In this document: piece after piece, positions 9,368 to 61,619 of the stretch | Layout: every line of letters starts with the position of its first letter | How positions within the stretch are numbered: the first letter of the stretch is position 1 | Assembly: GCA_949317995.1 (NCBI GenBank) | Contig: OX439040.1 | Location: 24,795,830-24,859,829 of the forward strand | Source of the DNA: Acholoe squamosa | Lineage: Eukaryota > Annelida > Polychaeta > Phyllodocida > Polynoidae | Reading direction: 5' to 3' | DNA length: 64,000 bases | Notes under the pieces: generated by a model | Database searches by the model: none | What the model was told of the DNA's origin: nothing | Seen by the model: only the letters and a program-made list of their open reading frames with translations | Made by a program: the position numbers and the translations under genes

Positions 9368-9486
9368 TTAGGTCGCTAATTAGTCACCATAAAAAATCTG
9401 TTTAGGTCGCTTATAAAATTGTGAAGGCAAAAAAGGATAGCGACTAGTTTTTAGCGACCAGTTTTTAGCGACCAGTTTTAAGTGAC

Positions 9487-9527
9487 CAATGTCCCCTATA
9501 TCCTCTGGTAGAATATAGGGGACATTG
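9487..9527. repeat. Perfect 15 bp-armed hairpin
   Basis: CAATGTCCCCTATAT (9487-9501) is the exact reverse complement of 9513-9527, with an 11-base loop. It lies just inside the left end of the 2.7 kb element. Confidence 0.85.
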
Positions 9528-9609
9528 TAGGCTACATGTGAGTTTTTACAGAATGAAAATCAGAGTATTATTAAGGAAACTACAAAGCAAAACGTGATCC
9601 TACCCAGTT

Positions 9610-9738
9610 CTTTTTTTTTAAGCACAAGAATATGCCTTATTCCATAACAGATCCCCTTCCCTGTTAATAACTTCTTTATCAAAATGTGGAGGGGAGTCTG
9701 GTAATGAATAAGCCATATTCTTGTGTTCAAGAAAAAAG
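9610..9738. repeat. Small fold-back sequence
   Basis: The left arm around AAGCACAAGAATATG and the right arm around CATATTCTTGTGTTCAAG are inverted copies with a few mismatches, spanning 129 bases and beginning and ending in T/A runs. It is probably a small MITE nested in the larger element. Confidence 0.65.
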
Positions 9739-9945
9739 ATTATAAACAAATTCTTAACCCCCAAAAAAACCAAGCCCCAGTTTTTTTTTTATATTCTCCC
9801 GTTAAGGGAAACCCTTTCCCCCAGGATTTCTATTCCCTGTGCTTGAATGACTACTGGGAAAGGGTTCAGGAAAAAATATTATCTTTTATGAATAACCCCA
9901 GCAAATTGTCGTTATCTGTTGCCATGATTGGTCATCAATGGTGAC

Positions 9946-10650
9946 TCCTTTCTGAGTGATAACTCACTGCGTCATCTTTCGCCACTGTGTGTCAGTCTCA
10001 CATGGCATGGTGATTTATCACAACAGTCGCCAACATGATCTCACTCACTGTGGGAGTATGTGCCACCCCTTGTCATCCCTCACAAAGCATGGTGACTTAT
10101 CACCACCATAGCCAACATGGATCTAACTCACTGCGTGAGTATGTGCCACTGCCTGTCAACTCTCAGTCAGAATGGCGGCTTATCCCAACCATCACCAACA
10201 TGGATCTGACTCATTGTGTGATTATGTGCCACTCCCAGTCAATTCTCACTCAGAATGGTGACTTATCACCAACATAGCTAATATGGATCTCACTCCCTGG
10301 GTGATTATGCGCCACTCCCAGTCAACTCTCAGTCAGAATGGCAGCTTATCACCACCATCGCCAACATGGATCTCACTCACTCCGTCAATATGTGCCACTG
10401 TTTGTCAACTCTCATTCAGAATGGCAACTTTTCACCTGCATTGCCACATGGTTCTCACTCACTGCGTGAGCTTGTATCACTCCTAGTTAATCTTCTCTCA
10501 AAATGGCGACTTATCACCACCATTGCCAACATTGGTCTCACTCAATACGTGAATTTGTGTCACTCCAAGTCAATGCTCTCTGAGGATTGCATCATCTGTC
10601 ACTCACTCTCACTCACAGTGGCAACTTATCACCACCATTGCCAAAGTTGT
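9946..10650 (+). repeat. Tandem array, about 82 bp unit, about 8 copies
   Basis: Successive units are anchored by ATGGATCTCACTCACTGCG-like starts at about 10034, 10118, 10200, 10282, 10366, 10448 and 10530. Each unit carries TATGTGCCACT, CAGAATGGCGACTTATCACC and CATCGCCAAC blocks. Units are diverged by point changes but nearly constant in length. The open frames in this interval (10035-10277, 10283-10486, 10366-10653) are by-products of the array. Confidence 0.85.
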
Positions 10651-11015
10651 TGAGACAGCACCACTGTTCAACATGTAGCCTATCTAGGAAGTGTGGGCAT
10701 GAAGTATAAGTCCCATATGTATCAAATGTGCTTTGTTTCACACTGATTTCCATGTAATACTTCAGAGTTGAATCAAACAAGATTATATGGAGATAATATC
10801 AATTGAGTTTAGATAGAGGTATCTCTAAAATGAAAGCATCTATCCATAAACACCTTTTCTCTGGTTACAGGAAAAATACATAGGGAAATATCAACATGAA
10901 CACCTTGTCTGTGGTTAGAGGGAAGATACATATGGCAATACCTTCTCTGGCAAAACATACTTTGATCTGGCAGATGTGAGGCTGCATGATTACCAATGTC
11001 GATGATCATGAGCTT

Positions 11016-11690
11016 TTCATCTAACAAGGTGAGTGATCACCAGCATCGCCACCACTGGTGAGTCTGAGTGATCACCACTCTTGCCATCCATGGTGAACCT
11101 GCGCTATGACGTGGTGCGCGTTTCATCTAGCGAGGTGAGTGATCAACCGCCTTGCCATCCCTGGTGAGTGTGAGTCATCACGATCCTCGCCAACCGTGGT
11201 GAACATGTGCTTTGGCATGGTGTGCGTTTCATCTAGTGAGGTGAGTGATCACTCGTGTCGCCATCCCTGGTGAGTGTGGGTGATCAAGATCCTCACCATC
11301 TGTGGAGAACCTGTGCTATCACGAGGTACGCGTTTTATCTAGCGAGGTGACTGATCACAATCCTTGCCATCCATGGTGAATGTGCATTATGACGTGGTGT
11401 ACGTCTCATCTAGCGAAGTGAATGATCACTCATGTCGCCATCCCTGGTGAGGATGAGTGATCACGATCCTCGCCATTCCTGGTGAACATGTGCTATGACG
11501 AGGTGCGTGTTTCATCTAGCGAGGTGAGTGATCACCCGCGTCGCCATCCCTGGTGAGTCTGAGTGATCACAATCCTCGCCATCTGAGGTGAGGCCATGTG
11601 ATCACCACCATTGCTATTCCTGGTGATCTTGTGCTATAGCGATGTCATGTTCCATCTAGCGACATGTGTGAGCCACTTCACACAGGTTGA
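11016..11690 (+). repeat. Tandem array, about 106 bp unit, about 6 copies
   Basis: Units are anchored by TTTCATCTAGCGAGGTGAGT at about 11018, 11123, 11229, 11337, 11406, 11512 and 11651. Each includes GATCAC and TCGCCATCCCTGGTGA blocks. Spacings are 105-108 except for one shortened and one lengthened unit. The unit is distinct from the 82 bp array, though both share TCGCCA and ATCACCACC words. Confidence 0.8.
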
Positions 11691-12558
11691 CGAGGAGTCA
11701 CGACAATTTGCTGGGACCTATGGTATTTAAGCTTCTAAGGTTATTATAATTTTTTTTGGTCATTTTGTATGAATAACCTATGGTATTCAAAATTCTATTC
11801 TGATCCCTTTATATGAATAACCTATGGAATATATATAATCTTCGTTTAGGTCATTATAGAGTTTACAGAGGATAGTTTAGGTCGCTACTGAAGTGTCTGT
11901 GGCTATAAGGTTGCTACTGAAGTCTCTAGTGACCAGTTTTTAGTGACCAATGTTTAGCGACCAGTTTTCAGCGAGCAGTTTTTAGTGATCAGTTTCTAGC
12001 GACCAGTTTTCAGCGACCACTTATCTCTTGACTTAATTGTTTTAGCGACCTAATCGTGGGTATGGCCCTGGAAATGAGGAGTGGACGTGTCCTTGTATCA
12101 TATTCAAAAATGGGTAGGCAGTTTGAGACCCCATGGGTCTCTTTAGAACAGTTGTGAAAAAGGAGCACTGGATCAGGCCCGGGGCTCCCTGTATTATTAC
12201 GACTGTTTATCTGAATCAGGGACAACCATGAGGCATTTGATTGACAATGAAAACAGATCTAAAATATATGTAATTCAGCTTTGTGGTTTTCAGTGTCGCT
12301 AATTATTTAAGAAACTATGTAAATATCTGATTAGTCCCTTAATTTCTTGGTGTCGCTTGTAGAGACTGCTCATTCTTGGCAGGACATCAGAGGTCTGATC
12401 ATCTACTTATCGCCCTGATCACACACTGGCCCTCCTTCATGGCCTCCTTCCCATACACACGTCAAAGATCCAATACCCCTCTCTAGCACCCACCCTGTCA
12501 CTAGTCTCTGCCTGTCTACCATCGTCCCTGCCGTTTTCACCCTACCACCCTATATCTA

Positions 12559-12777
12559 GGGCCCCAGACAGGTAAAATCGACAAGGGGACAAGTCCATTT
12601 CGTAAAATCGACAAGGGACATAGGGGTGGGTGACAAGGGACAAGCGCCATTTCTTAGAATCGACAAGGGGACAAGGCCACTTTTTAAAATCGACAAGGTG
12701 CATAGGGGTGCATGACAAGAGACAAGCGCCATTTCTTAGAATTGACAAGGGACTTGAGATCCCCCTGTCTAGGGCCC
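12559..12777. mobile_element. 219 bp MITE with 8 bp target duplication
   Basis: The element starts GGGCCCCAGACAGG and ends CCTGTCTAGGGCCC, so the 14 bp inverted ends differ at one base. It is flanked by a perfect 8 bp direct duplication, TATATCTA, at 12551-12558 and 12778-12785. The interior is two tandem copies of an about 84 bp unit rich in ATCGACAAGG. An 8 bp duplication is known for hAT elements, among others, so a hAT-type non-autonomous origin is an inference. The open frames 12542-12748 and 12630-12815 are products of the internal repeat. Confidence 0.85.
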
Positions 12778-17412: not shown

Positions 17413-18311
17413 CACTGCAAAAATGGTGTTTAGATCCTAAACACAACTCTAAACATATTCTTGCAACGTTTTTGTAATCACATTAATTTCCTAAACATGT
17501 TTAGCCAAACAATGTGCTTAGCTCAAGTGTTTAGTAATGTAGGTGTTTAGGTTAAAACTTTGTGTTTAGATATATGAATTTTTGTGTTTATGTGTTTATG
17601 AATTTTTGTGTTTAGATGTTTAAACGATTTGATGGAGAGTTAAGGTTTGCAGACATGTATGCATTAAAAAACAGAGATATATTTTGTATGTTTTCTTATT
17701 TACTGGGGGGGGGGGGGACATCAGCAGGTATTTACTTGTCAAAGTCCCCAAAGATGTCAGCTATATATGTGTACATTTATTACACACTGCATCAGAATGA
17801 GAGACTTGAGAAAGTACAACAGCTTGGCAGGAAGGACATTGCCTTATGTATTCCAGAATAATATCAAATAGGTGTCAGTCATGGAGTTTATTGATTATTT
17901 TATGGTAATGATGGTGGCATGAGGTGAATCTAGTTAATTTTCTATTGCCCTTTCTATTCACATGACATTCTATGAACTGAAACCATGATAAACATGGGAT
18001 TTGGGGACATTTGTCACAACAATTGATTATAACTGTGTGCAGATAGTCCAGTCAAAGGTAGTGCTTCTACCTGGTGTGGATTCAACACCCAAGTATCTAA
18101 ACATATTGATATTTTAATCTAAACACCTATTATTCATCTGTCTCAACTCTAAACATCTAAACATGTTTAGCGTAAATGTTTATGTAGTTAGAATAAAAGT
18201 GTTCATTTCCTAAATGTGTAGTCGATGAGACACCTAACTGACCTATATGTTTAGGTTTTAAACATGTTTAGACCTAAATATGTTTAAAATCTAAACACCA
18301 TTCTTGCAGTG
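17413..18311 (+). mobile_element. 0.9 kb TAAACA-rich DNA element, copy 1
   Basis: The ends are inverted repeats: CACTGCAAAAATGGTGTTTA on the left and, reverse complemented, CACTGCAAGAATGGTGTTTA on the right. The flanks show TA on both sides (17411-17412 and 18312-18313), fitting a 2 bp target duplication. Both ends are packed with CTAAACAT / ATGTTTAG words, while the central 500 bases are different and include a poly-G run at 17705-17717. A near full-length inverted copy is at 58124-59016. No transposase frame is seen, so it is non-autonomous; the superfamily was not assigned. Confidence 0.85.
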
Positions 18312-18895
18312 TAGGGGTGGATTACAGCTGAGGCAGGGCACATGTACCAAAGGACACATCTCCAATGTAAGCAGCCTCGGCCAGCGGCTATTAATACTCA
18401 GTTTAACTCTGTCTGGCTGGAGGGGGCGAGCCTGCAATATAAGAGGCAAAGAAACATCACCACATCAGTGCCACTTGTATAGGCACCATACCTTTATGAT
18501 GCCTTAATCCACAGTGAGGCTACACAACACACAGTTTCACAACTGTTCTGTCTCAAAGGAGTGTTTCTTATCAACAGTGTAATTTTTATACCAACTTCAC
18601 TTTGTAAATGTCATAGGGTGTTAGATTAGCATGGGACAGAGAACAAAATACTGTAGGATGCACAGAAGAGGGCGGGTGTATGGGGAATCGACTTATTGGC
18701 AGGAAAAAGATATAACACCTGAGAGGGAAGGGTATGAAGTATTTCAAGGGGAAAGCAAGCAGGGGAACACAACAGAAAAGTAGAGATGGATGGAGATTAA
18801 AGGGAGGGAGGGAGAGAGAGAGAGAGAGAGTCATTATAACTGACATAGATAGTAATTAAGGGTACACAGAAGAAAGTAGAAGTGTTATTGATGGA

Positions 18896-22679: not shown

Positions 22680-24322
22680 TGGATTACAGCTAGAACACTG
22701 CCATGTATCCTCTTACAATTGATAGATGTATGTAAATGCAGGACAAGGATGCATTACCTCATCGATACCACTTGTATGGGCATTGTCTAATGCTGTGCGC
22801 CTTCACCCCAACACCACATCAGAGCAAGAGAGGACGGGAGAGGGTTGGGAGGGGGGGGGGGCAAGGACAGTGATAGCAATTTAAGCTGCAGAGGTTGGAA
22901 GAATTACAGGGGTTTCCTACGTTCCTCTCATGTCTTAATATCACCACCAGGGCATTCTTTGCTACCCAGCTAAACCTCATTTCACAGACCATATACCACA
23001 ACTCTAGAAAATAGAATCATTGGAAAATGAAGAGGGCTCTTAACTAAGATATATTAAAGTGATCTTTGTGCCACATGGAAAAATATGGTTTTCGAATTTG
23101 GCCAGGAGGCCCCCTCCTACCTTCGTATTGCAGATTTGGGTAGCCCATGCAGGAAAGATCATTCAAGGTTTATGTAGCATTTAGGAGAATGACCTATAAC
23201 CAAACTGATACTGGGATTTAGGCTATGCGCATTTTGCATCACAGGGACAGCCAGTAAACAGGTATGGCTACAGCTCCTATAACCCTGTGGGATTGGCTGA
23301 GACTGTGGAGATGGTGATTCCTGAAGTGCTAGGGGAGGGCTGGGAGATGGTGGGTATGTTTGCATGCACACCATCACTGCAGGGTCACTTCGGGCAGCTG
23401 GCTACATCTTACTTCTTTTGGTAATGTTGTTTTTTGTACTTCCTATTCCCTAAACCATTGATTCCATAAGCTCTTGTTTTCTCACTAATCTTGCTGGTGT
23501 GCCTCATCTGCTTATTTCGTTTAATAACTAGGAAATGGTACTTATTGCTTTGCTTTTGTTCATTTGATTATTACTTTCTTTGTGTGGTTATCCATTTCTC
23601 TCTGGTCATTCCTTTTAGTTCATTCCTTTTCTAAAACTTGCAAGTATAGTAGGCTGCATACAGTATAATTATAGACTTGCTATACTTGTTATGCAGTGAT
23701 ATAAACGCCATTCTACCATTCATTTTTAAGCAAGTTTTAACCTTTTCACCTCAATTTGTAGTCAGAGTCTTGCTGATGCAGCAATTTTCTCATCCAGGTT
23801 GAAGACATTTTTCAGTAGTAACGATCCAGGTGCCTCCTTACTGAGAGATATATGATGAAACCACTAATTTCCTGTCAATGTACCCCAATGCCCAGGATGG
23901 CCACAAGTAGCCCCATCCCCTCGCTCCCTCACCCGATGAAGAGGACCCAACTAAGTGGCACAAGCAATATTAGCCACCATACTTTCTACTACTAACATTG
24001 ACACCCAATACAGATCAGAACACTTAAATCCAGGTCATGGCACCGTGACGTCTTGGAAAACATGCTCTTGGCATCACTTGGTCCCGGGCACTTGGTACAC
24101 CATACATCCATAATCCATATCGAATGGAGGATTGGAGTAAAGGATTTAGGAATAAACTAGCATCTTATGGTCCTCTTCACTGTATTGCCTTAAGTCTGTA
24201 CTACATGTATGTACATAAAGTATATTACAGCCCAGACATGTGTCGGCGTTATTAAGGCATGTGCCTCTGAGAACAGATAAATTAATTGATTATATACATC
24301 ATCACACCATCTAGATATGGCT

Positions 24323-26186: not shown

Positions 26187-27440
26187 TGGATTACAGCAAA
26201 GAGGAGGTGGCGTGCAGGCTCTCAGACAGGACACATCCCTGTAAATAGAGGCTAGGGACTCCTTAACACATCAGTACCACTTGTATAGACACTTATTCAT
26301 GCCTTAATAACGCCGACACACTCTTTTACACACTACCACCCACTGCACACATTCTGAACTGGTATATGACCAGTCTCAGTAGGGGAAAGTGGTGTAGGTG
26401 TAGGTGTGGATAGTGACTAGTCTGCAGAATAGCATTTTAAGCATTGCTTTTGTGCTTCTCTTGTTCTACTGCGAGATCTGGAGAACATTAACACCAGAGA
26501 ACATAGGGCAGATCAATAGAATGGAAGGCAGTGGGGTACTTAAGAAGCTGGGAGAGGGAGATACAAGGACGGGGGGCAGAATGACCCAGAGAGACGAGGA
26601 CAGGTAGAGAGAGTAGAAAAGAGAACATAGGGACGGAGAGAGTGGAAATTGAAATGATGAACTATAGCAGATGCTCCAGACTCAGTGAAGAAGAATCGAT
26701 TTGGTACCTTTTATGTTTTCAAAGGCAACATATAACCAGTTTCTTGTTACCCTACACCTTCCTGTATATGTAACCCACACCACAATACTGCAGCTGCTGA
26801 AGACATCACCCCATATCTATATATAGTATATTCAGAGCTGCTCTCTGCCTACTTTGTAAGTATGGGCAGACCTTTAGTTCTCTTTTACACCCAATCAATG
26901 GTGCACATTAGCCTCATAGGGGTCTGTAATGGTATACCGTGTGAAATCTTGAGTATTAGGTCATTACATATCCAAGCTAAAGCCTAAACTACCTAGATGG
27001 TAGATTCCACCATCGGGATGTTTTGAAATTCAAGTTTGAATTACGAGATTGGTATCGCACTACACATTTGTGTGATTGCAATCCTCTTCCACATATTATT
27101 ATTTCTGAATGACAGCTTTATCTGTCTTGATGAGGAGGAACCTTAATCAATGCAAACAGATGGCTGACCCAGCGACCTCCCCAGCTTGTAGGGAAAGTAT
27201 TTATAAATCAATTAATAATTTTAAATGAAACTTTGGTTGCAATCAGCAGTCTTTTCCTTTGCAGCAGACACTCAGAGCTGTGCACACAGATATCGACCAC
27301 ACACTCGCTATCAGACCGTGCCCATGGTGCAAGAAGGAAAGGGGGAAGTGGCAGGGATCAACAATAGGACCTCTCAAATCTATGTACACCCACCCAACTC
27401 TCATTTCTCATGCCTTTCGTATCAGTATGGAGGCCTAGTG
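26187..27440 (+). repeat. Composite repeat L-R-T, copy 3, most compact
   Basis: L block 26187-26330, R block about 26700-26900 and T block about 27260-27440, all within 1.25 kb. The GA-rich part between L and R (26540-26640) corresponds to the microsatellite-bearing part of the other copies. As the shortest copy it is the best template for defining the family. Confidence 0.55.
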
Positions 27441-28329: not shown

Positions 28330-31025
28330 GGTTGGTTCTAATGCTCCACTGTCAGCAAGTCATTCAACAGTGCTGCATTGATGCATCAAAGGCGTAGGAA
28401 GCAAATCTTCATTGTAGGGTGGCAGTGGCTTAAGAATGTTAAGTGCACTAACATAGATCTGTATATGGACATAGAGGATTTATGTAAAGACTAATCCTTC
28501 ATAGCTTATTTTAACCCAAGCTTTCCTAAAGACATAACAATCAAATGTGAATGGTGAGTTGTGAGAATCTTGTGCATTTCATCATGAGGTCTTGACCTAA
28601 GAGAGACCAGACATTTTACCATCCCCCTCCCTTTTCCCACGCCCCTGCTGCATCATGACACCAAATGAACGTGAACATGTATCTTTGAGGCATCATACTA
28701 CCTTTAAGAGAGTTAAGTGATCAGGTATCCACTTGTTGGTACTACCACACCTAAGTAACATCATTCATACCTGTGAAGGGGGCTGGGTGGGGATCACATT
28801 GAACTCCCGCACAACTTGGGCCATGCATGGATCAATTAGAGGTGGATCAATGACTCTGAAAAGGAGGGGATGCACCCTTCATTTAGCCTCTATATTTGAA
28901 GCTTAGAATAAAAACTAACTGGCAGAAAGGTCTCCGTCTAAATCCACCACTGTGATCAAGATGAATCACTGTGTTGAAATTGTTGCTTGACTTTGAATTT
29001 CAGCAGTCTTATAAACTCAGCTCCTCATTGTTTTAATCCATTGCTTTACAGAATAAGTACCTAATCCAACAGGGTCGACATATTAAACAAATATATTAAA
29101 CAGATATAACTTCCACTTCCACTGCATGATCCCCATCATCTGTATGGTTAATTTGGACTCCATTACCCAAAGACTCCCTATCCCTTGATCTCCCTTGGCT
29201 CACACCATAAACTCATAATGTATGACCAGAGTGCACACGTCATTTGTTAGCCTTAATGAGATCAGGCTATGCCCAAATAAACATGTCTTAATGAAGCTGT
29301 TGCTAAATTGAGCATGATTAACGCTAACACTAAAGCAAGAAGTCTAGTATCATAATACTGTGCATATAAGTTGCTGCTTACACACCCAGCTAATACATGA
29401 GGATGGACCCCTGGTGCACTAAATAAAAGCATATAATATATCTAAAACCAATCAATTTATATACTGTTTCTGAACTCAGGATGTGTCTTATATGCAGGGT
29501 ATTTCTGTGGTGTAATCTAATATACGATCTGGTCTGATCAATGCTTTACAGACCCCTTGTTCTTTATTATCCATACAACTGAATATTTGAATAGGCCACC
29601 CAACAGTAAATAGACATTAACCATTAAATAACTACCCCGAGTGACAAGATAATGACATAAAGAAACACTGCTGAAGTATTTATTAAAATGAGAGTAGAGC
29701 TATTATCTAGGTCTCCCACATTATAAAGACATTTTGATGTTGACATACTAAAATAACGGAACAAGAAAGGATAGTGGAGCTAATAAACTAATAAAGTCTG
29801 GAAAACATAGGTACAAAGCAACATGAATAAAATCATATTTTTATTCATCAAATATGCCAACAATAGCTGACTTTGCTGCTGTTGGCTCTATTTTGAGGAA
29901 ATGCCCCCTTCTTAAAGGTTAATCACAAAGCCAACTGAAGGCCTAAGTAGGCTGCACTAAGCCTGACCTACACCAGCTCCTAGCCTACAGCACGTCCCTC
30001 CACTTGTATCTTTCCATAATTAATCTGTAGTTAATAAATTGTGAGCTCTGGCTACTTCTAATTTCCTTTGACAATATCTTGGTTCATTTCTTCATCATAT
30101 TTATTTCTTTTATTGCCTTTCCTGTTCAGAGTGTGAAGCAAAAGTATTTGCACTTTGTTTGGGTTAGTTTGATTATGGAGAAAAGAAGAGGTAATCATTT
30201 CTGCCTTGGGTTTAGTCTACCACTGAGGTAAGCATAATAAAGGCTGAATAATGAAAATACAACGGCACTACAAATCACAATAAGTTGCTCAGTTGTTGCT
30301 ATTTCTGGCAACATTTAGGATAAAGAGTCCAATTATGACATCTGTGCAATTAGGGACATAACTAGCCAGCACTGCTCCTGATTGTCTATTTCTACCATAA
30401 GTATCAGGCATCCTCCCATTTATGTCTGCCTAAATTATGTAAATTTAGGAAAAGGGGGGCCGGGGGCTGTTTATATCTGCAAAAGATTGGACAATTTGCA
30501 TGGCACCGACAGCCCATTGCCTTATACATCGTTTAATCAGGGTAATAGATTTGGTACCTCCATTTCTGAGAAGATTTAAGTTTATAAGTAAAGAGTGTAC
30601 ATCTAATCATCAATCCCTTTCTATTGACCAATCAGAAAATTCTCTTCGTTTAGTGCAGACTTTGTAGGGGGCATTATGTAACAACTGGTCCCCATCATGG
30701 TGGCTGTTATCAGTCCTTATCTCTCAAGGTATCAGATTCAGCAGGGGTCAGCCCACTAAGGATCCTGCTAATCAGGAATAGACAGAGGTGTGTAATAGAG
30801 CAATTCATTTACATCGACCTGCCTAAGTGAGGGATGCCTCTCACATGTTGGGATTGGGTATACAATTCATACACATTTTAAAGGGATGACTGTGATTATT
30901 ACCCCCCTCCACCCCTCCTCCATACTGTCAATGTTGCTACACTCCTTCTCAACATCCATTTTATAATTGCCAGCCATTAAATTTTATTTAAATCATTAAT
31001 TGATCCTCCTGTTGATCATGTTTCG
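28330..31025 (+). repeat. Diverged segmental duplication, copy 1
   Basis: The order of homologous blocks matches 33610-37285. Shared landmarks include a GGTCTTGACCTAAGAGAG block, CACAACTTGGGYCATGCATGG, CTCCCTATCCCTTGATC, TATTATCCATACAACTGAAT, GTCTGGAAAACATAGG, CATTGCCTTATACATCG and CTCCTGTTGATCA. Copy 1 has extra DNA relative to copy 2 at about 28930-29035 and 30173-30287. No gene was seen; the short frame 30382-30579 falls in a non-conserved part. Confidence 0.85.
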
Positions 31026-33609: not shown

Positions 33610-34094
33610 CAATAATAATTATAATGCATCACTGTTAGCAAGTTATTCAAGGGTGCTGCATCGCATCAGAGGCATAAGAAGCTAATCCTCATTGAAGGGG
33701 GGAAGGGGGGGGGCTAAAAACTTGAATCAGTGGTTTAAGACAATTAAGTGCGCTAACACAGATACATGGACATAGAGGATTAATCCCTGACGGCTTATGT
33801 TTAACCTGGGCTATCAAAAAGACATTAGTCCAATGTGAGTGGTGAGTTGTGGGAATCTTGTGCATTTTATCATAAGGTCTTGACCTAAGAGAGACCAGAC
33901 ATATTTGACTCCCCCCTCCTTTTTCCTATGCCCCTATGCATCATGACACCAAATGAACATGAATAATATTACATGTACCTTTGATGCATCATGTGACCTT
34001 TAAAGAGTTAAGTGATCAGGTATCCACTCGTTGATACTACCACACCTAAGTAACATTTCTCATACCTGTGAAGAGGGCTGGGTGGGGATCACAT

Positions 34095-34239
34095 CAGGGG
34101 CGTAGGAAAAGGGGGGACCAGGGGGGCCTGTGCCCCCCAATAATGAAGAGGTTCCCTATATAAGCTTATATAAAAATATAGAAGGCCCCCCCCGAGACCC
34201 CTGGGCCCCCCCAATAAAAATTTGCTCCCTACGCTCCTG
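34095..34239. mobile_element. 145 bp MITE with CAGGGGCGTAGG ends
   Basis: The element starts CAGGGGCGTAGGAA and ends TCCCTACGCTCCTG, which are inverted copies. It carries poly-G and poly-C tracts facing each other (GGGGGGCC and GGCCCCCC) and AT-rich middle sequence. CACAT is present on both flanks (34090-34094 and 34240-34244), and the other duplication copy lacks the insert at the matching site near 28800. It resembles the CAGGGG-ended hAT-type MITEs known from many animals, by general knowledge of such families. Confidence 0.85.
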
Positions 34240-34449
34240 CACATGCAATTCCCACACAACTTGGGTCATGCATGGATCAATCCGTGGTGGATCCAGGACT
34301 ATGAAAAGGAGGGGACACAACCTTCATTTAGCTTCTATATTTGGCTAGATTTGAAGCTTAAAATCGAAAATAAACTCTTAACTACAGAGAAAAGGGTCCT
34401 TGTTGCTTTATAGAATAAGTGCCTAATCAAACAGGGTGGACATATTAAA

Positions 34450-34772
34450 GGAATCCAGACTTTGTTACTCCCTAACACTGCAATTATGCTACCTTTTTTC
34501 GTACCCCAACTTAACCTTGGTCAGATATAAGGCCGCACAGAGTAACTCGACAAAGGTTCATTCCTGCATGTTTCTGCATAATATATGTACCGATGCAATG
34601 CTGATGAGATATCCTTATGTACTGCTTTGGTACATCATGGCATCAAAGGCATGCAGGCATCATTAGTAGCAGCAGAAATATTGTATGGGTTGACAAGGTG
34701 TGTTACCTTTGGTAATTTCTACTACAATACATGATGAAAGTTTGGAATATAGTATGGAGGGTGTATTCCCTA
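34450..34772. other. Insertion specific to duplication copy 2
   Basis: About 320 bases absent from copy 1 near 29090-29105. No terminal repeats or coding capacity were recognised, so the agent is unknown. Confidence 0.5.
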
Positions 34773-35241
34773 AACCCCAACAGTTCCACTGCCACTGCAT
34801 GGTCACCATCCGCTGTATGGTTAATTTGGATTCCATTACCCAAAGACTCCCTATCCCTTGATCCCTGTTGGCTCACACCATAAACTTATAATGTATGACC
34901 AGAGTGCACAAGTCATCTGTTAGCCTTAATGAGATACGGCTATGCCCAAATAAACATGTCTTTTTGAGGACATCTTCGAGCTGTTGCTAAATCGAGCATG
35001 ATTAATGCTAACACCAAGGCAAGAAGTCTAGTACCATAATACTGTGCATATAATGTGCTGCTTATACACCCAGCTTATACATGAGGATGGATCCCTGGTG
35101 TTCTTCATAGAAGCATATAAAATATCTAAAATCAAGTGCTTTATATACTGTTCCTAAACTCAGGATGTGTCTAATACGCAGGGTATTTCTATTGTGTAAT
35201 CTAATATACAATTTGGTCTGATCAATGCTTAACAGACCCCT

Positions 35242-35877
35242 TTGTCTTGTCATCAATAAGTAATAATTGTGGGAGACAGATATAAAGGAGTTACAATGTA
35301 TGTATTTATTGATATGAAATATGTATAGAGCATCGGGTGAGACATGAGTCCTGTAGAGGGTTTGTAGGAGTAGATGAGTAGTAGCTTTGGAATGCAGGAG
35401 TTGCTGGCGAGGTTGGGGTGAGTTTGGTTCAGGTGAGCCTGCGATAAAAGAGATATGTGTGAGCTGCCAATAGGCCAGCAGAAAGGTGTAATGGGTTAGT
35501 GTGGATGAAGCTGTCTTGGTAACTAGTATTACATCTAGCCAGTGTAAGGAGGGACTAAGCAGGACTTCTATAAGGATACCCATCTCTCTACAGAACTGGG
35601 GTTACTTGAAGAGTGCACTGCAAGCGGGGTTAAACTGGTATCACTTAGGCCACTGTAGGCATGGATTGAACATTGGACTGTAGCTGTAACTGTGGATTAT
35701 TACATGTACAATAAACAGTGACTTGTATAGGCGTCTTGGTGTTGGTTTAAGGATGGGCTAGCCAGCATCATATCACTAGAGTTAGTTTCCCAAAGCTTAA
35801 TATCTAATGGAGGACTACATAAATATAGACACATCACATTACATCATTATACACAAAATATAAATCCATACAGCCCA
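35242..35877. mobile_element. Insertion of about 635 bp in copy 2, possible solo LTR
   Basis: Copy 1 reads straight from CAGACCCC into TTGTTCTTTATT at 29545-29575, whereas copy 2 has about 635 additional bases there. The insert has a TATA-like TTCTATAAGG near 35569 and an AATAAA signal near 35709 followed by a GTCTTGGTGTTGG region, an arrangement seen in LTRs. Clean TG...CA ends with a target duplication could not be fixed, so the LTR reading is tentative. The minus-strand open frame 35062-35583 overlaps it and shows no known domain. Confidence 0.35.
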
Positions 35878-36107
35878 CCTTGTTCTTTATTATCCATACA
35901 ACTGAATATTTGAATAGGCCCCCAGCAGTAAACAGACATTAACCACTGAATAACTACCCCAAGAGACAAGACAATGATGCAACGAAACTCTCCTGAAGTA
36001 TATATTAATATGAGAGTAGAGCTTTTATCTAGGTCTCCCACATTAAAAAGACATTTTGATATTGACACACTATAACAAGGGAACAAAAAAGGTTGGTGGA
36101 GCTAATT

Positions 36108-36275
36108 CGGTTTGACAGTATTCAATATCAAGAGGCCGCTATATTTTCAAAGCTACGTAATTCAAGCATTTTACAACAACTCTTTGCCACTATACATTGG
36201 CAAGCGCAATTATGCTGGTGTAATACACAAAGTTCCTCACCCATTGTTTTCAGTAAATGTACATGTGCAAATACA
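36108..36275. other. Insertion of about 170 bp in copy 2
   Basis: Copy 1 reads GGAGCTAATAAACTAATAAA at the matching site near 29775; copy 2 has about 170 bases between GGAGCTAA and TGATAAGTCTGG. No inverted ends were recognised. Confidence 0.5.
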
Positions 36276-37737
36276 TGGTACTGATAAGTCTGGAAAACAT
36301 AGGTTCAAAGCAATATGAATGAAATCATATTTCCATTCATCAAATATGCCAACAATAGCTGACTTTGCTGCTATTAGCTCTATTTTGAGGAAATGCCTCT
36401 TTCCTAAAGGTTAATCGCAAAGACAACTAAAAGCCTAAGTAGGCTGAACTAAACCTGACCTACACCAGCTCCCAGCCTACAGCACGTCCCTCCACTTGTA
36501 TCTGTCTATAATTAATCTGTAGTTACTAAATAGTGAGCTCTGGCTACTGCTAACTTCCTTTGACAATATTTTGGTTCATTTCTTCATCATTTTTTTTTCT
36601 TTTATTGCCTTTCCTCTTCAGAGTGTGATGCAAAACCATTTACAATTTGTTTGGGTTAGATTGATTGCTCAGTTGTTGATATTTCTAGCAACATTTAAGA
36701 TAAAGAGTCGAATTATGACATCTGTGCGAAGAAGAAAGTACCTAGTCAGTTAAATTTAGGAAAAGGGGGGGCTGGGGGCTGTTTATATCTGCAAACCACC
36801 ATCCCTAAATTGCCTCTACAGTATGTGCCAATATTGAACACTTTGCGCAGCATCTACAGCCCATTGCCTTATACATCGTTTAATCAGGGTAATAGATTTG
36901 AGAAGATTCTTGAGAAGAAGTTGGGAGTCTACATTGAATGTTCAAATCCTTTTCTCTAGAACATTAAAGGGGATTTAGGCTGAATTGAGTATAATAAAGA
37001 GAGGTGTTTGGCAGAGCTATTCATTTACATGGATCTGCCGAAGGTGCCAGTCACATGTTGGGAGTGGGATGCAATTCATAAACATTTAAAAGAGAAGCCT
37101 GTGATTATTACCCCATATTCTGTCTATGTTGCTATGTTTTCAACGCTCATTACCAATATCCACTGGGAAATCTCAAAAAGTTTTCCATTTGATATTTCAA
37201 TATTGTTCTTTTTATGCAATGTTATAACTTCCAGCCTTTTATTTCAATCAACAATTATTATTGGTCCTCCTGTTGATCACGTTTGAATCATAGTTACATT
37301 GTTGTTCATTTCTTACTGTTTCCTATGTATTTTCATATCCATGTGAATTCCCAGTGACTACTTTACTTAATCACTTTTTCTTTACCATTTCCAGGTGAGT
37401 CGGTGTGCCCATCTATAGAGGATATGGCTTTGTATACATGTTCTAATCATGCATTGTCTTCATCTATACTATATCCTAGCACTATCACACACATGCATCT
37501 CTACCTCCAGACCCAGGTCAAGTCCTGGTCCTAATATACAAAGACAATTCTTTCTTACAGCGTGCATCTTACAAACACATATACGATATTATCTGAGAGA
37601 GAAAAATATTTCCTCCAGTAGATTAGCAGTTTAGACACTCGATACATAAATCTTATCTCCTAATTGATATTCTAATACACATATCTTAATTACTGTCTCT
37701 AATTTACTTACATTATCCATTGACTTAATCATTTTCT

Positions 37738-40860: not shown

Positions 40861-42547
40861 TACACACAAATCAGATCAATATACATAACCGGTCGTCCCA
40901 AATAAAACATTTTAATATACATGTATGCACTTACAAGTGTATATATATATGCTCATCTTAATATTACCAGAGACTTGATTGTACACTTGGTGTTCAGAGT
41001 ATGCTAAACAAGCACCGACACAGGCTGCTAAATTCATTTCACTCCACTGGCCTAGGTTTTAGTACTCACTTCAGTTCAGATAGAAACCCCATTTGAGGGG
41101 GTCCTTATCAGAACCAGTATTGATCAAATCCCGCTCTACGTCCTTGTGGACCAGCAAGCCCCCTGTGTCTGGTACACACCCTCTTCACCGTGACATCATC
41201 AAAATAGCTTGACCCCCTCAATCGACTTTTATTTTCACTCAAAAACGATCGATTTCACGAATCCTAAATATCATCTACCTCGCGGTGTTCCAATGTTAAG
41301 AGGAAATACTCCCCTTCACGTTACTTCTCGGAACACTGGGTCAATATCTTTTGGATGTGACCCATTAGCAGGAACTCCACATGAGCAACACTGGTTGAAA
41401 TAAAGCACAGTTCTTTTATATCCTTTGGTGCATCATTTTCGTGAATATCTTGCAGGTACTTCACATTTCTTTTACATGCAAATTATATTTCACTTGGGCT
41501 TTCCTCATAGTACCACAAAAAAGAATATATGCAAAATGGAGCCCTGACCTATTAGTTAACGGAAGTAGTGCCATATGTGAATGCTGCCTTGGGAAGGAAC
41601 TTCAGGAAATTACAGCGTCAAGCATCTGACAGGGGGTTGACGCGTGTCACAGTCCATGTCTATGAGGTTAAATTGCTTTCTAGCTACCTCTTCTACCAAT
41701 ATTTCCTGGTATTCTCCCTGGGGCAGTTCTTCCAAAAAAGTATACTTTCCGCTTGGGGATCCAGGACCTTGAATCAATTTTGATCCAACCCTTGTCGATG
41801 TAAATTTAGAATTGAACTGACATTTGTTTCCTGTGGGTAGTATCACGATGCATCTAGGAGTATTGGTGTATCCTGGTAGTACACCCTAGATACTAGGGTA
41901 AATTGGGCAATGCATCCTCTATCAAATATAAGAAGACAGAGATTTATAAATTTGTAATGCGTCTCCTCTGTCCGCAAGAAGGGAAAATACCTTATAATAC
42001 ATGCTGCCCAGTGAACACATATGGAAATAATACATGAGACACACATTCAGGCAGTCCATCCCTAGACTTACCATATAATGCCGTGCTTATTTTACAGTGT
42101 CATGATGACTGGGGCCCTACCATCCTTACACTGGTACCCTGCAAGTATTGAGATCATGTACCACCAGACCCTCTCTGATAGCCTTTATGGAGGATTTTTC
42201 TAATAAGTGATAGGCTAACGTTACTTTGAAATAACCTCTAGAACAAGTTGTGGCCAGTGATTGAGCTAAATTTTTTTAGTTCTAAAAAGCACAGTTTTTA
42301 TCGGTATGGGAGAAGGGGGTTAACTGTTTGGAAATTAGGTTACGTCTGTGACTGTATATGAGGATGAAAAGGGAATGATTGACATAATTATTTTCGTAAA
42401 TCCTCCCTTTTAAGCAGGATTTATCAATACACACCACACATATCTTTCCAACACTACAATAAAATATACTCTATTGAAGATGTTTTGGTGGTTATCTAAT
42501 AGAAAAGGAATAATTAGAATGTATGATATGTAGCCCCTAAATGCATT
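40861..42547. other. No gene seen
   Basis: Short frames at 41209-41403, 41441-41629 and 41610-41846 lack recognisable domains. No repeat structure was found. Confidence 0.4.
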
Positions 42548-43365
42548 AGGCCGGGGGCTGATAGGGCCCACCATGCACCCCCCACATCCCAACGCACCAG
42601 GTATTTTTTTTTATCCTTAGGGTCCCCTGAACAAGATTCAAGATGTTAACATTGATTATCTTGGGATGCACTACCGGTTTTTTGCTCATTATCCATGTGT
42701 GGGTTCAGACCACTTTTGAGACAATTTTGCTACCATGTTATTCAAGGGGTATGCTCAATCCCTAAGCTCTAAGACTATTTGGAAAGAAGACATGATAAGC
42801 TTTTCATTAAGCCCTACTACATGTTTTTAAGTTCAGATTTGAGTGTACAGTCAGGAAGACGAAAGATTGAAATCACAAAGTTCCTTTTTTAACTGAAAAT
42901 TTTAAATGCACTCCAGATACAGTCATGTATAAAACTTGTTCTTATCTCCATCTAACCACAATATCTAACATGATTTATGTAGGCCAAACCTTTCTGAGTA
43001 AAATGAGACATTTTGCAGCATTCCCTGTTGACTATTACCCACGTTATTGCCTTGGAAGCAAAGACACTACCTTGAGCCAATACGATGCTGTTCCATTTCA
43101 ATAATCTCCCCCTTTATCTCTATAGATGTTTTTCCATGCTGAAATTCTCCTGACTCTTATGTAAAAAAGGGTGCTGATTAAGAATATACGTGTTGCTACT
43201 TCATAAAGTTTAATGGCGAGGCTGTATATAGCTGAAAATCGAAATGGCCAACAATAGATTCAAATGTCATTTTGAATTACATATATGTGCACTCTAGAAA
43301 GTATCTGGTGGGTCCTACCCCCTATAAATCAGCTTAGTAGAATACAGTGGTGCTTTTGTTTTGTT

Positions 43366-43890
43366 GATAGGTGGTATGGTTGCCTAGCAACAGTAGCTTT
43401 GCATAGCAACCAAGCCTGAAAATATGCTCAAATGTGCATATCTGCATGGTTTCCTTTCAGCAACATACTCCCCTGATGTAAACTTGCATATAACTCTTCT
43501 GTGACTTCCATCATAGACTAGGAATATAGGTGATAAAAGGTTGCTAGGTTGTGTGGTGGCCTAGCAATAGCAGTTTTGCATAGCAACAATGCCTAGATTC
43601 ATACCTTTAGGCATATACTATGTCTTGTGCATAGTCTCCCCTCAAGGACATAGTTCAATGATTTCAGATTGCATATAGCTCCCTTGTGCACATCAAACAG
43701 TATGAACATAGGTAGTAAATGGTGGCTATGTCATGTGGTTGCCTAGCAACTGCAGCTTTACATAGAACCCTATGTCCAAAGCTATGCAGATAGTCACAGA
43801 TAAGTGTATGGTCTTGCTATAAGAACTTGTATGTATAGCTCCCCTGTGCACATCTCGGCATATAACAGGTTGCAAGGTCATGTGCTTGAT
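43366..43890 (+). repeat. Tandem repeat, about 180 bp unit, 3 copies, with X-box-like motifs
   Basis: Units begin near 43366, 43545 and 43726. Each carries GTTGCCTAGCAA or GTGGCCTAGCAA, then GCTTTGCATAGCAAC-like sequence and later CTCCCCTGTGCACAT or a relative. Only the first unit and the start of the second fall within the inverted arm, so the arm boundary cuts through the array. GTTGCCTAGCAAC at 43379-43391 and 43738-43750 fits the RFX X-box consensus with a one-base spacer. Confidence 0.7.
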
Positions 43891-45604
43891 GTTAGTCTAC
43901 CTTTTAAAATCATCTTATTGACAGAGACCAAATAATGAGATAATGATCATATGAGAAAATATTTGCCACATCCACACCCTGTGTTATTTTGTATATACAT
44001 ATCCATGCATATGTATCTCAGATCATCCATGATTACACAGGATTGTAATTCCTAACAGCTCTCCCCTCCACCCCCCATATCAAATTCCTGTAACCACTGT
44101 CATACTGTCAAAATTTACCATTGCTGGTACTGATAACACACATTTAGAATACAGAAGATTTGCTCTCAGCTTCATAACGTACTGCATGCCTTATTGATTA
44201 TCCCAAAAGCTTGGGCAGCTTACTTGTCTTAAAATAAGTGCAAGGTGGTTTCATTCACATATTGAGAAAATGAAAAATAAGGCTTAGAATACAATTGTAC
44301 AATTCTCAGGATATTCTCTCATCTGTTACCTCTTCAGAGCATCAGGCCCGGTGTTATTCATCCTCACATATCTCTGAACATTACATTCTAGTTCAATTTC
44401 TCTCATAGCAGTGTGATACCAACAGCTGGGGATTATGCTGCTGGACACCTCTGAGAAGGCATGTTGATCTGTTATAGTTCATTATCCCAAACACCTGGTG
44501 TAGTGAATTACTAGTTGACCCTGATAATACTTCTGAAGTCCACTGGCACGCAGACCTTAAGTATTTTCTACCATTCCACATCACTCACAGTAGACTGGTA
44601 TGGCGTATAGAAGAGGGAAGTGTCATCCATATTGTACAAATTGCTCCTATCATATCTAGAAAGCACCTGAGTCTACTGTTGTGCTTCTGTCACCTTCACT
44701 TTAATCTGCAGTCTCTCTCTCCATGGATCCTATGACTGGAAATCATCTTCCTGCCCTTGACAATTGATAGCCATCTTTTAAAGTAACCCAGGGTTTTAAC
44801 ATTGAGCTGCTCACCACAGAGCCAAGTCATCTATTCAATCTTTTAAACAGCAATCACAGACTTGACCACTAGTTCAGTAATTTATTTTGCAGGAAGGTTT
44901 GATTAACATGGGAGAGAAAAAAAGCATAGCATGTTGAATGGCTGTGATGGATATATAACTGCAAATGGACAGAATACTTAATGGGGGTCTATTGGATGTG
45001 TGACCACTATCAATGACATCTGACAGATAGGGACAAAGTAACAAGTAGCTATTAAGATAAAGCTAGCCATTCTAGAATATTGGCAACCTGCCTGTTTGTT
45101 GGAGACATGATACAAGAAGTTACCAGTCAATTATCCCCTGTTTTTGCCCTCACTCACGAGGGGCACCCTATCACCCCAATGCTTTACCTGTCTCTCCTAT
45201 GCAGCTATTTTGAACATAAAGTGTGATCTCAAACTACCATCTAGTTGAGTTCAAGTGAACTATTCCCCAGGATCTAGGGAAAAATAACCTCCCTGCCCTA
45301 TCTCTAACTTGAGCTGGCATAAATAAATGAATTGCAACAACAACATTCCTTACATCAGCCAAACACACATTTACTACCTTGTGTTATTGTGACCAATAAT
45401 TTCACATAACTAGACTGATTTTCTGGGATGGATCTTCTCTTAACCCAGCCAGACTCTCACTGATCACTTCAGAATGATCTTAGCACTCATCATTCCCAGT
45501 AAGGGTAAGTAAGCCTGTAGTTCCTATCCAGATCTCTGTTCTATTTAAACAATGCTCTAGCATAATCATGACTATAGATGCCCTTTACCATCAAGATTCC
45601 TTTT
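43891..45604. other. Unique interior of the fold-back unit, no gene seen
   Basis: AT-rich sequence between the inverted arms with no frame longer than 63 codons (44393-44584, minus) and no protein motif. If the unit were a transposon, an autonomous member would be expected to encode its enzyme here; none is seen. Confidence 0.45.
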
Positions 45605-45693
45605 CCCAACCTACACTACTGTTGTAGGTTGGGATATCAGTTGGCCTAGCAATATCAGTGTTGCTATACAAAACTGATATTGCTAGGCCAGCA
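45605..45693. repeat. Two adjacent hairpins at the inner edge of the right arm
   Basis: TCCCAACCTACA (45605-45616) is exactly inverted at 45624-45635. Directly next, GGCCTAGCAATATCAGT is inverted as ACTGATATTGCTAGGCC by 45693. Confidence 0.8.
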
Positions 45694-46740
45694 CACAACC
45701 TAACAACCTTTTATAACCTATATTCCTAGTCTATGATGGAAGTCACAGAAGAGTTATATTCAAGTTTACATCAGGGGAGTATGTTGCTGAAAGGAAACCA
45801 TGCAGTTATGCACATTTGAGCATATTTTCAAGCTTGGTTGCTATGCAAATCTACTGTTGCTAGGCAACCACACCACTTAGCAACAAAACAAAAGCACCAC
45901 GGTATACTACTAAGCTGATTTATAGGGGGTAGGACCCACCAGATACTTTCTAGACTGCACATATATGTAATTCAAAATGACATTTGAATCTATTGTTGGC
46001 CATTTCGATTTTCAGCTATATACAGCCTCGTCAATGAACTTTATGAAGTAGAAACATGTATATTCTTGTTAAGAACCCTTTTTTACATAAGAGTCAGGAG
46101 AATTGATAAAGATTTAGTATGGAAAAACATCTATTTAGATAAAGAGGGAGATTATTGAAATGGAACAGCATCCTATTGGCACAAGGTAGTGTCTTCGCTT
46201 CCAAGGCAATAACGTGGGTCATAGTCAACAGGGAATGCTGCAAAATGTCTCATAGCTCAGAAAGGTTCGGCCTACATGAATCATATTAGATATTGTGGTT
46301 AAATGGGGATAAGAACAAGTTTTATACCTGTATCTTGAGTGCATTTAAAATTTTCAGTTAAAAAAGGAACTTTGTGATTTCAATCTTCCGTCTTCTCGAC
46401 CGTCTGGTACACTCAAATCTGAACATCAAAACATGTATTAGGGCTTAATAAAAAGCTTATCATGTCTTCTTTCCGACAAGACCAATAGCTTTAGGATCCA
46501 GACAAGGTAAGATAGTCTCAGAGCTTAGGGATTGAGCATACCCCTTGAATAACATGGTAGCAAAATTGTCTCAAAAATGGTCTAAACCCGCACATGGATA
46601 ATGAGCAAAAACCATAGTGCATCCCAAGATAATCAATGTTAACATCTTGAATCTAGTTCAGGGGACCCTAAGGATCGAAAAATACCTGGTGCGATGGGAT
46701 GTGAGGGGGGTGCATGGTGGGCCCTATCAGCCCCTGGCCT

Positions 46741-47404
46741 ACATGAATAGCATTGACTCACACTGTCCGCCAGCAGGAACAATATTTAGCCAGACAGGAC
46801 AAGATCTTATTAGGCCTTGGAGACGTTGGCTATCTGATATTTGATAAAGGCTATTTACATTGGGATATAGGATGTAGTTGCTGTCAGGATTAACTCTAAG
46901 CTAATCAATAGGTGTGTCAGCCTTTATAAGATTATACCTTGTATAGTGGACAATTATACCACATAAGGTCTATATCGGTCTAAGTCTGGGTGAATCCAGC
47001 AGTGTTCTTGACCTTATTAAGATTGAATCCCAATAGCTCTGTCTCTCTCTTCTGCAATTTCTTTCAATTCTTCTTCTTCTTTTTAAGGCCTATGTGCAGT
47101 CCCTCTGGGTATCTATGGGGGGTTTCATATTGTGCTGATTTTGCCTTTTTGACTTTCGCTGTTGTTTCTCATATGGCTTGTATGGCTGGTGTGTCAATAT
47201 TATGCAATCCTACTGCTTGTTCAAGCCGTTTATTTTGTTCTGATTTCCCTTATATCATATTTTCTACCCATTTGGTGAATATCTAGCTACCCTATTTCTG
47301 GGTGGTTGTCCACCTGGTGAAAAAACCAATCACCTGAATACATAGCCAGTAAAGGAACTGATCAAATACAAAGTACAGTGTACTGGGCATGCCGTATTTG
47401 TAAT
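46741..47404. other. No gene seen
   Basis: Contains a T-rich stretch at 47060-47090. The 98-codon frame at 46990-47286 is driven by the T-rich tract and has no recognised domain. Confidence 0.4.
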
Positions 47405-56300: not shown

Positions 56301-58123
56301 AGTCCTGTACAAACTCACAGAGTCTAGTTCTTGTTCAACCAGACTCTGCTCGTCACCTAACATGTTTTAAGGTCATCCTGTCACAATAAATATTGTAAAA
56401 CGTGGTAAGCTGATTACACACAGACAGACATCACAGACACGGGGAGCAGGGTAAATACTTAGACATGTTTGACTAATATGCCGCCTTACCTTGAGGGCTG
56501 GTTCCACTGCATTGGTCAGGTCCATTTCCTGCTAATCCGACAATATTATTCCATACATTTGCTATATAAAAAGTGGTTGAATTAGCAAAAGATTTACCCG
56601 ACCGATGCTGAGGAACAAGCCCTTAAATCCTCACAATCACCATTGCCTCTATAGGAGCACAAGAGGCTACATAGCTTTATACGTATGCAACCTTTCTTAC
56701 TGAAGCAATGAAAGGGAGATGGTTATGCTAAGAAGGGGATTTGAGTAATGTACACACATACAGTACAGCTAAAACAAGGACAGGAAAACATCATGGTCAA
56801 GCAGCACAGACCATTATGGTTAAGTCCAAGGCATGATATTAGCTCTATTTCTATATTTCAGCACTCTATAGGAAAAACATGTAGATTCCTGTGAACACAT
56901 TTTTGATATTATGACACCAATCTCTACCTGATCAGCTTACATCCTTTTTATATTGTTAACGTCCCTACATTCTTTTGTGCAACAGTGGCCAACCCAACTA
57001 CAATAACTCTTTGCAGTCCAAGTTATATGGATCACAGTAGTTTTGCTCTACTTATGGAAAATCTTATGTTAACCTTTTATTGTGGTTCATCAGGTTCTAA
57101 GCCACAAAGTCATAGACTCTATTAGCTTGTCCATATGCACTAGACTGCATTTAGAATGTCGGCCTTGCACTGCTAACAATACAAAGCAATAAATAATAGT
57201 ACTTTGTATGGTAAGATGGATAGAGACTGAATCATCAGCAGGTGACCCTTGGTACATTTGTATGGTACACCCATTATCACCCATCACACGTCTACTTCCG
57301 CTGTATTTATGGCTGTTGGTGACCAGACCAAAGTGGGGCTTACAACTCATTCTAAAGGGCATGCAGTAAACACACAGTGTATACAAATGACCCGTTTGTG
57401 GCAGATAACTACAGCATATATGTTCTTCTTTAAACTTTGAGTACAATATAGGTTGTGGATCAAACCTCTTGTGGGACAAAAAATACATATTAGCTGCTAC
57501 TAATTGCTTTTGACGTTGAATATCGCCTTTACCAAGGACACTAGATACAGACAAGGACAACTGAATTGGTCATGGCTATCCTGATTCACGACCAGCAATG
57601 AATGATACAAGAGGACAAGTTGATGTGCTTTTGCACATGGGTATCACTGGAACAAGTTGCATATCAGGAAATTCTTATTGACCAATTCTATAGATATATG
57701 AGCCCTACCTCTCCCCAGATTTGAAGTAGAATTTTAGTTATTCTGAAGGACCCTGTGTGGTTCAAGGGAATAGTTGATTAACAGCTTAATGCTTACATGC
57801 ATATTTAAAGCTCCTCACCTCAAGGATCTTACCCTCCCCCACCCCTTTACTTGTGAGCAAATTGCATCTAACAAAAAGATGCTGTCAGTTGCTGTTTGAA
57901 GACAACCCTGCCGGCCTTGATCTAACCATGTAAGGCCACTTTGACCTTGGCCCACATTCTCTCCCCCCGACAACATTGGCCCTATGCCCTTATCCTTGAC
58001 CCCGATTTTGGCCCCACTCACCCTGACCCTATGACCCCAGATGAAGTAGGCGCCTGTGTAGTCTGCCATAACCATAAATCAGTATTGAACAGCCTTTGGA
58101 GGCCCTTTCTCTGAACCTCCCAA
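53321..58123. other. Unique AT-rich stretch, no confirmed gene
   Basis: The longest frames are 53631-53957 (plus) and 57090-57560 (minus, 156 codons). Neither shows a signal peptide, a domain or typical codon bias that I can defend. A T- and C-rich part at about 57830-58060 contains several GACC/CCTTG words but no clear element. Confidence 0.4.
56395..56475 (-). repeat. Fragment of the 0.9 kb dispersed repeat
   Basis: On the minus strand it reads TGATGTCTGTCTGTGTGTAA followed by TCAGCTTACCACG, matching the right part of 31270-32165. The rest of the element was not found beside it. Confidence 0.6.
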
Positions 58124-59016
58124 CACTGCAAAAATGGTGTTGATATTTTAAACATGTTTAGGTCTAAACACGTTTAAAACCTAAACATATAGGTCAGTTA
58201 GGTGTCTCATCGACTACACATTTAGGAAATGAACACTTTTATTCTAACTATATAAACGTTTAGGCTTAACATGTTTAGATGTTTAGAGTTGAAACAGTTG
58301 AATAATAGGTGTTTAGATTTAAACATCAATATGTTTAGATACTTGGATGTTAAATCCACACCAGGTAGCAGCACTACCTTTGAATGGACTATCTGCACAT
58401 AGTTATAATCAATTGTTGTGACAAATGTCCCCAAATCCCATGTTTATCATGGTTTCATTTCATAGAATGTCATGTGAATAGAAAGGGCAATAGAAAATTG
58501 ACTAGATTCACCTTATGCCGCCATCATTAGCATAAAATAATCAATAAGCTCCATGCCTGAAACCTATTTGATGTTATTCTGGAATAGATAAGGCAATGCC
58601 CTTCCTGCCAAGCTGTTGTACTTTCTCAAGTCTCTCATTCTGATGCAGTTTGTAATACATGTACACATCTATAGCTGTAGCTGATATCTTTGGAGACTTT
58701 GACAAGTAAATACCTGCTGATGCCCCCCCAGTAAATGAGAAAACAAACAAAATATATCTCTTTTTTTAATGCATACATGTCAGCAAACTCTCCATCAAAT
58801 CATTTAAACATCTAATCACAAAAATTCATAAACACCTAAACACAAAAATTCATAGATATCTAAACACAAAGTTTTAACCTAAACACCTACATTTCTAAAC
58901 AATTGAGGTAAGCATATTGTTTGGCTAAACATGTTTAGGAAAATAATGTGATTACAAAAACGTTGCAAGAATATGTTTAGAATTGTGTTTAGGATCTAAA
59001 CACAATTTTTGCAGTG
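58124..59016 (-). mobile_element. 0.9 kb TAAACA-rich DNA element, copy 2
   Basis: Near full-length inverted copy of 17413-18311 (893 against 899 bases). The ends are CACTGCAAAAATGGTGTT and TTTTTGCAGTG. Here the flanking dinucleotide is AA on both sides (58122-58123 and 59017-59018), again consistent with a 2 bp target duplication. Indels include a shortened poly-G (poly-C here) tract. No transposase frame. Confidence 0.87.
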
Positions 59017-61548: not shown

Positions 61549-61619
61549 AAAAGCTTGGTTAGAACCATGTCTCTATGATATAAAGCCACCCAGCAGTAGT
61601 GTAGTGTGAAAGCGTCCAG

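Follow-up and report, generated by a model that had tools for sequence, protein, structure and literature searches.

The locus described here lies in a 64-kb window, the whole stretch of DNA that was analysed, and combines tandem arrays, short inverted repeats, hairpins and clustered short motifs over positions 9368-12053. The window has a G+C content of 0.398, a CpG observed/expected ratio of 0.35 and only three open reading frames of at least 150 aa, and appears to be eukaryotic, largely non-coding DNA. Searches of the window found no structured RNA with Rfam at gathering scores and no tRNA. An earlier note had described the locus as one coherent 2.7 kb unit. The repeats on which that description was built are present, but an inner 16-nt inverted pair and an associated empty site put the arrays in a separate insertion. 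A nested reading thus fits the locus better, in which a non-coding DNA transposon of 1.8 kb, holding both arrays, lies inside an older repeat-rich stretch referred to here as the shell (Table 1). The observation is in this way partly confirmed and its first interpretation partly supported: a non-autonomous element housing satellite-like arrays is supported for 9897-11715, but not for the full 9368-12053. Ends lying inside the unit, which the earlier note had named beforehand as evidence against itself, took the form of the inner inverted pair with its empty site and not of other copies.

Table 1. Features of the nested locus, in window coordinates.
Feature	Position	Strand	Basis or remark
Left shell part, motif block and three hairpins	9368..9896	.	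repeats, hairpins
Claimed left outer end, unproven	9368..9379	+	12-bp pair
Inner non-autonomous element, 1819 bp	9897..11715	.	exact 16-nt inverted ends and empty site
Left terminal inverted repeat (TIR), CCCAGCAAATTGTCGT	9897..9912	+	exact inverted pair
Array A, 83-bp unit, 6.9 copies	10007..10573	+	repeat finder, 78% matches
Non-array core, 345 bp, with 50-bp duplication at 10845-10940	10656..11000	.	limits set by analyst
Array B, 106-bp unit of about 35-bp subunits	11009..11671	+	repeat finder and self-comparison
Right terminal inverted repeat	11700..11715	-	exact inverted pair
AC, second copy of likely target duplication	11716..11717	.	first copy 9895-9896; ACC also fits
Right shell part, TATGAATAACCTATGG repeats and motif block	11716..12053	.	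repeats
Claimed right outer end, unproven	12042..12053	-	12-bp pair

The inner inverted pair is complementary at 16 of 16 nt and encloses both arrays. When the window was searched for CCCAGCAAATTGTCGT with up to three mismatches, the partner was the sole other match. When the whole window was simulated 40 times by a Markov model using the window's own dinucleotide steps, 16-mer inverted pairs at such a spacing arose in two of the runs. The left flank of the inner element ends in TATGAATAAC and the right flank begins with ACCTATGGTATT. Joined after removal of 1821 bp, that is, with a single AC retained, the flanks align gap-free with an intact neighbouring repeat and agree with it at 31 of 36 positions; the intact copy sits further right in the shell and is a paralogous repeat, not an allele. 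Among 9000 joins around both ends, for which the 99.9th percentile of scores is 25, all seven of the best (26 or 27 of 32) remove exactly 1821 bp, which is the inner element plus 2 bp. The empty site rebuilt by this removal places a 1819-bp element inside an 867-bp shell. The inner pair and the empty site are the anatomy of a transposon insertion, and the empty site rules out chance as the whole story. The target duplication, read from one copy, is short and ambiguous (AC or ACC, 2-3 bp).

The inner element runs from TIR through the 83-bp array, the 345-bp core and the 106-bp array to TIR, so that the arrays lie near both ends and flank the core. Both arrays had been reported earlier, the first with a unit of about 82 bp, for which the repeat finder gives a period of 83, and the second with a unit of 106 bp, and both are present. 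Sequence related to array A spans about 9960 to 10644. For array B the repeat finder gave one row at 11015-11384 (3.5 copies, 79%) and overlapping rows that extend to 11592, and the array also shows a longer periodicity of 283 bp. The CpG observed/expected ratio of the array B region (11001-11675) is 0.71, twice that of the window, and the core is without CpG. A separate 82-bp tandem repeat at 12576-12751 (2.1 copies, 89%) lies just beyond the locus, with a unit unlike that of array A by eye.

No transposase was seen in the locus, in agreement with the earlier note. The longest stop-to-stop frame overlapping 9368-12053 is 123 aa (10282-10650), and a Pfam scan that covered 99 of the 135 window frames with a length of 68 aa or more, including five that overlap the locus, gave no match better than E 0.013. 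The 16 Pfam families reached at E values up to 0.1, each in 1 of the 99 frames, were considered as coding relics and set aside as noise. No second copy of the inner element was found in the 64-kb window, a single copy being known, and no autonomous partner or transposase for it was seen there. The best explanation, to which we assign a probability of roughly 0.7, is a nested non-autonomous cut-and-paste transposon of 1819 bp that entered an older non-coding shell at a short repeat of the TATGAATAACCTATGG type and duplicated AC or ACC. Support for this reading comes from the nesting, from inverted ends that are exact over 16 nt, from the reconstructed empty site and from the lack of any recognised coding frame.

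The class of the inner element can be narrowed by its ends. Inverted ends identical over 16 of 16 nt, a target duplication with an empty site and no transposase gene are what is found, as in a non-autonomous TIR transposon, and the end sequence CCCAGCAAATT fits none of the superfamilies compared. CACTA/EnSpm transposons end in CACTA and have subterminal repeats and a 3-bp target duplication; the inner element has subterminal arrays, and its duplication may be either AC or ACC, but assignment to that group by end sequence fails on CCCAGCAAATT. Helitrons and Helentrons have asymmetric ends, a 3' hairpin and no target duplication, and are ruled out by the symmetric 16-nt inverted ends and the short duplication. 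A foldback element was rejected because the inverted ends are just 16 nt and the two arrays match better directly (score 31) than inverted (25). The arrangement as a whole is of a kind already known.

Several described systems share parts of this arrangement. The Tetris foldback transposon of Drosophila virilis, as its report presents it (PMC4079207), likewise has no coding capacity, and its middle domain is flanked by tandem arrays that lie close to the two ends. It has inverted repeats of up to 1.7 kb, target duplications of 8-9 bp and units of about 220 bp, whereas the inner element has inverted ends of 16 bp, a duplication of 2-3 bp and two units that differ from each other. The Galileo F subfamily of Drosophila mojavensis also carries tandem repeats near its ends, which vary in number, but by the account in PMC3573991 its arrays lie inside long inverted repeats, its target duplications are 7 bp and its transposase is known (P superfamily). 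The Cg_HINE Helentrons of the Pacific oyster are described as non-autonomous elements with satellite-like arrays, sometimes two consecutive arrays of different units (PMC7492417); they differ in carrying a microsatellite, a 3' palindrome and inverted repeats of 11-12 bp that lie subterminally, whereas the inverted repeats of the inner element are strictly terminal and a target duplication is present. CACTA elements of Chenopodium, for which PMC8978399 gives subterminal repeats of several hundred nucleotides, a 3-bp target duplication and in some cases a satellite array, can be likened to the inner element, although the latter ends in CCCAG, not CACTA, and no transposase was seen. Finally, the Xenopus MITEs Xstir and miDNA4, as summarised in two reviews (PMC12628747, PMC9659126), are non-autonomous and have inverted ends around tandem repeats; they belong to other families (miDNA4 to Tc1/mariner) and are known from copies across the genome, whereas the inner element is known from one copy.

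The shell, 867 bp with the insert set aside, is marked by hairpins and by the motif GGTCGC/GCGACC. Direct repeats of the GCGACC type had been noted on both sides and do occur there: a 14-bp motif unit forms one block of 3.6 copies at 9438-9488 and another of 6.6 copies at 11927-12019. The hairpins, earlier counted as two, are present but number three (about 9487-9527, 9609-9739 and about 9811-9866), and every one of them lies in the left shell part. Nine of the 13 occurrences of GGTCGC/GCGACC in the window fall in 9368-12053, all nine in the shell and none in 9897-11715, against a chance expectation of 1.44 per 20 kb. This clustering is beyond chance, and chance is thereby ruled out for the shell motifs.

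The limits of the shell are another matter. The 12-bp inverted pair TTAGGTCGCTAA is present where it had been reported, at 9368-9379 and 12042-12053. In 40 Markov simulations of the same kind, non-low-complexity 12-mer inverted pairs spaced by 0.5-4 kb numbered 23.4 per 64 kb on average; because such pairs are common by chance, the outer ends alone carry little weight. Among the nine reverse motifs (G[CT]GACC), the outermost alone has TAA after it, as the left end does. On each side TA is also found immediately outside GGTCGC, giving outer ends of the form TA-GGTCGCTAA...TTAGCGACC-TA. The outermost TAA and the flanking TA favour real ends at 9368 and 12053 with a TA duplication, and the shell is possibly a MITE-like relic with putative ends. 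A competing reading accepts the inner transposon but sees no element in the shell, which would be either a minisatellite-like stretch rich in motifs or a row of several small, decayed elements, with the 12-bp ends accidental. The abundance of 12-bp pairs speaks for it, as does the orientation of the left and right motif blocks, which are direct copies (score 65) and not inverted ones (25). So does a stretch beyond the claimed right end, at about 12294-12342, that resembles the left shell end with a score of 24; only 6 of 1102 control windows reach this score, a figure that flatters since the stretch was picked after the motif had been seen there. Against this reading, which is a serious competitor but a doubtful one, the outermost motifs converge on an identical 12-bp sequence and have TA directly outside GGTCGC at either end.

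The two arrays had been called unrelated. They hold in common a box of about 33 bp in which 27 of 33 aligned bases are identical with one gap, and are probably related by descent, to judge from the comparisons that follow. When the columns of array A were permuted, 1 of 500 permutations reached the forward score between the arrays; the reverse comparison is weaker but not absent, its score being reached by 23 of 500. Four of the eight boxes in array A score 28-30 against array B, where the best of 2869 35-mers taken from elsewhere scores 27. Among 400 stretches of the window, none reaches the score between the arrays when compared with B, and four reach it when compared with A. The dyad GGYGA-N4-TCRCC, a motif picked after the box had been seen, occurs five times in the window, three times in array A and twice in array B.

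These figures bear on a further alternative, which keeps the inner transposon but regards its arrays as passengers that play no part in transposition. They would be either a pair of minisatellites or satellite monomers that were captured, and alike only by chance or base composition. Shuffles of the two consensus units reach the forward score in 8 of 300 cases and the reverse score in 19 of 300, and an unrelated stretch at 45101-45220 matches the end of array A with a score of 36, the highest outside the element and above the 31 of array B; this stretch may be either a stray relative of the box or a chance match. Capture of pre-existing repeats by MITEs is also described in review (PMC12628747). 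The column permutations, the four array A boxes that exceed every control 35-mer and the subterminal position of both arrays weigh against passenger arrays, which are a real possibility but one we regard with some doubt.

The nested transposon reading suggests a mechanism. The inner element would have been moved by a transposase encoded elsewhere, and one ancestral box with the dyad GGYGA-N4-TCRCC may have been amplified into two long subterminal arrays by unequal exchange or slippage, the additional boxes then serving as secondary transposase-binding sites. This proposal follows those made in the Galileo (PMC3573991) and Tetris (PMC4079207) papers, which put forward such secondary sites in repeats near transposon ends and hold that these repeats can expand. 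The Tetris repeats are also reported to have a 37 bp stretch at about 80% in common with another Tetris domain (PMC4079207), which can be likened to the shared box here. By analogy with these systems, the role of the extra boxes as putative binding sites is tentatively put forward, at odds somewhat short of even. A more specific version, in which both arrays came from one ancestral dyad box and diverged to 83-bp and 106-bp units on opposite sides, each side being selected for many transposase-binding boxes with their spacing free, is unlikely as it stands; if true, two different satellite-like monomers would have arisen from a single binding box, and the element would be a record of this. Should the shared box hold, the locus would offer a test case for one motif near transposon ends yielding two tandem-repeat units; should it fail, what is left is an ordinary nested non-autonomous element.

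One observation counts against the nested reading, which leaves it as coincidence: the hexamer TAGCGA is common to the shell and array B, with eight of its 16 occurrences in the window in the shell, six in array B and only two elsewhere. This distribution, together with the motif clusters at both sides and the TAA after only the outermost reverse motif, is what speaks for one coherent non-autonomous element with ends at 9368 and 12053 and both arrays as cargo, a reading made very improbable by the inner inverted pair with its empty site, by the commonness of 12-bp pairs and by a direct comparison of shell and arrays, in which nothing rose above background. Kinship of the shell ends with the arrays found no support either: a 12-bp match links the left end to array A, but over 40 bp the score is 19, short of the 21 that marks the 95th percentile of 3108 windows. 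For genome surveys the unit is accordingly corrected, the inner ends CCCAGCAAATTGTCGT being needed as well as TTAGGTCGCTAA.

The idea that arrays within transposons seed satellites is already in print (PMC4079207, PMC7492417, PMC12628747, PMC9659126). Within the rest of the 64-kb window, arrays A and B found no further match by self-BLAST at E 1e-3. A full-text literature search with five end and motif strings did not find the end sequences of the inner element in print, and the three papers that matched were judged unrelated by their titles and the starts of their abstracts. In viral-contig collections, which have little bearing on animal or plant repeats, patterns from the two arrays returned 0 and 0 loci. 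The pattern TTTTTAGCGACCAGTTTT returned two loci (L001 and L002) there, matching over only 16-28 bp, and the inner end returned four, matching over only 15-20 bp; both sets are attributed to chance.

Other repeats occur elsewhere in the window. A stretch of about 4.2 kb at 42544-46745 has inverted arms of roughly 1 kb at about 92% identity and is of the large-inverted-repeat or foldback-like kind. A 0.9 kb repeat is present twice in inverted orientation, at 17413-18316 and 58119-59016, with 92% identity between the copies, and a multi-block direct duplication of about 80-94% identity links 28489-30905 and 33778-37114. The translation of 61600-61872 (GGLVVSALRS...ESRSG) resembles what we take to be read-through of a tRNA-derived SINE. 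An exact 23-nt inverted pair, with its members about 2 kb apart at 24239-24261 and 26298-26320, possibly represents the ends of another transposon.
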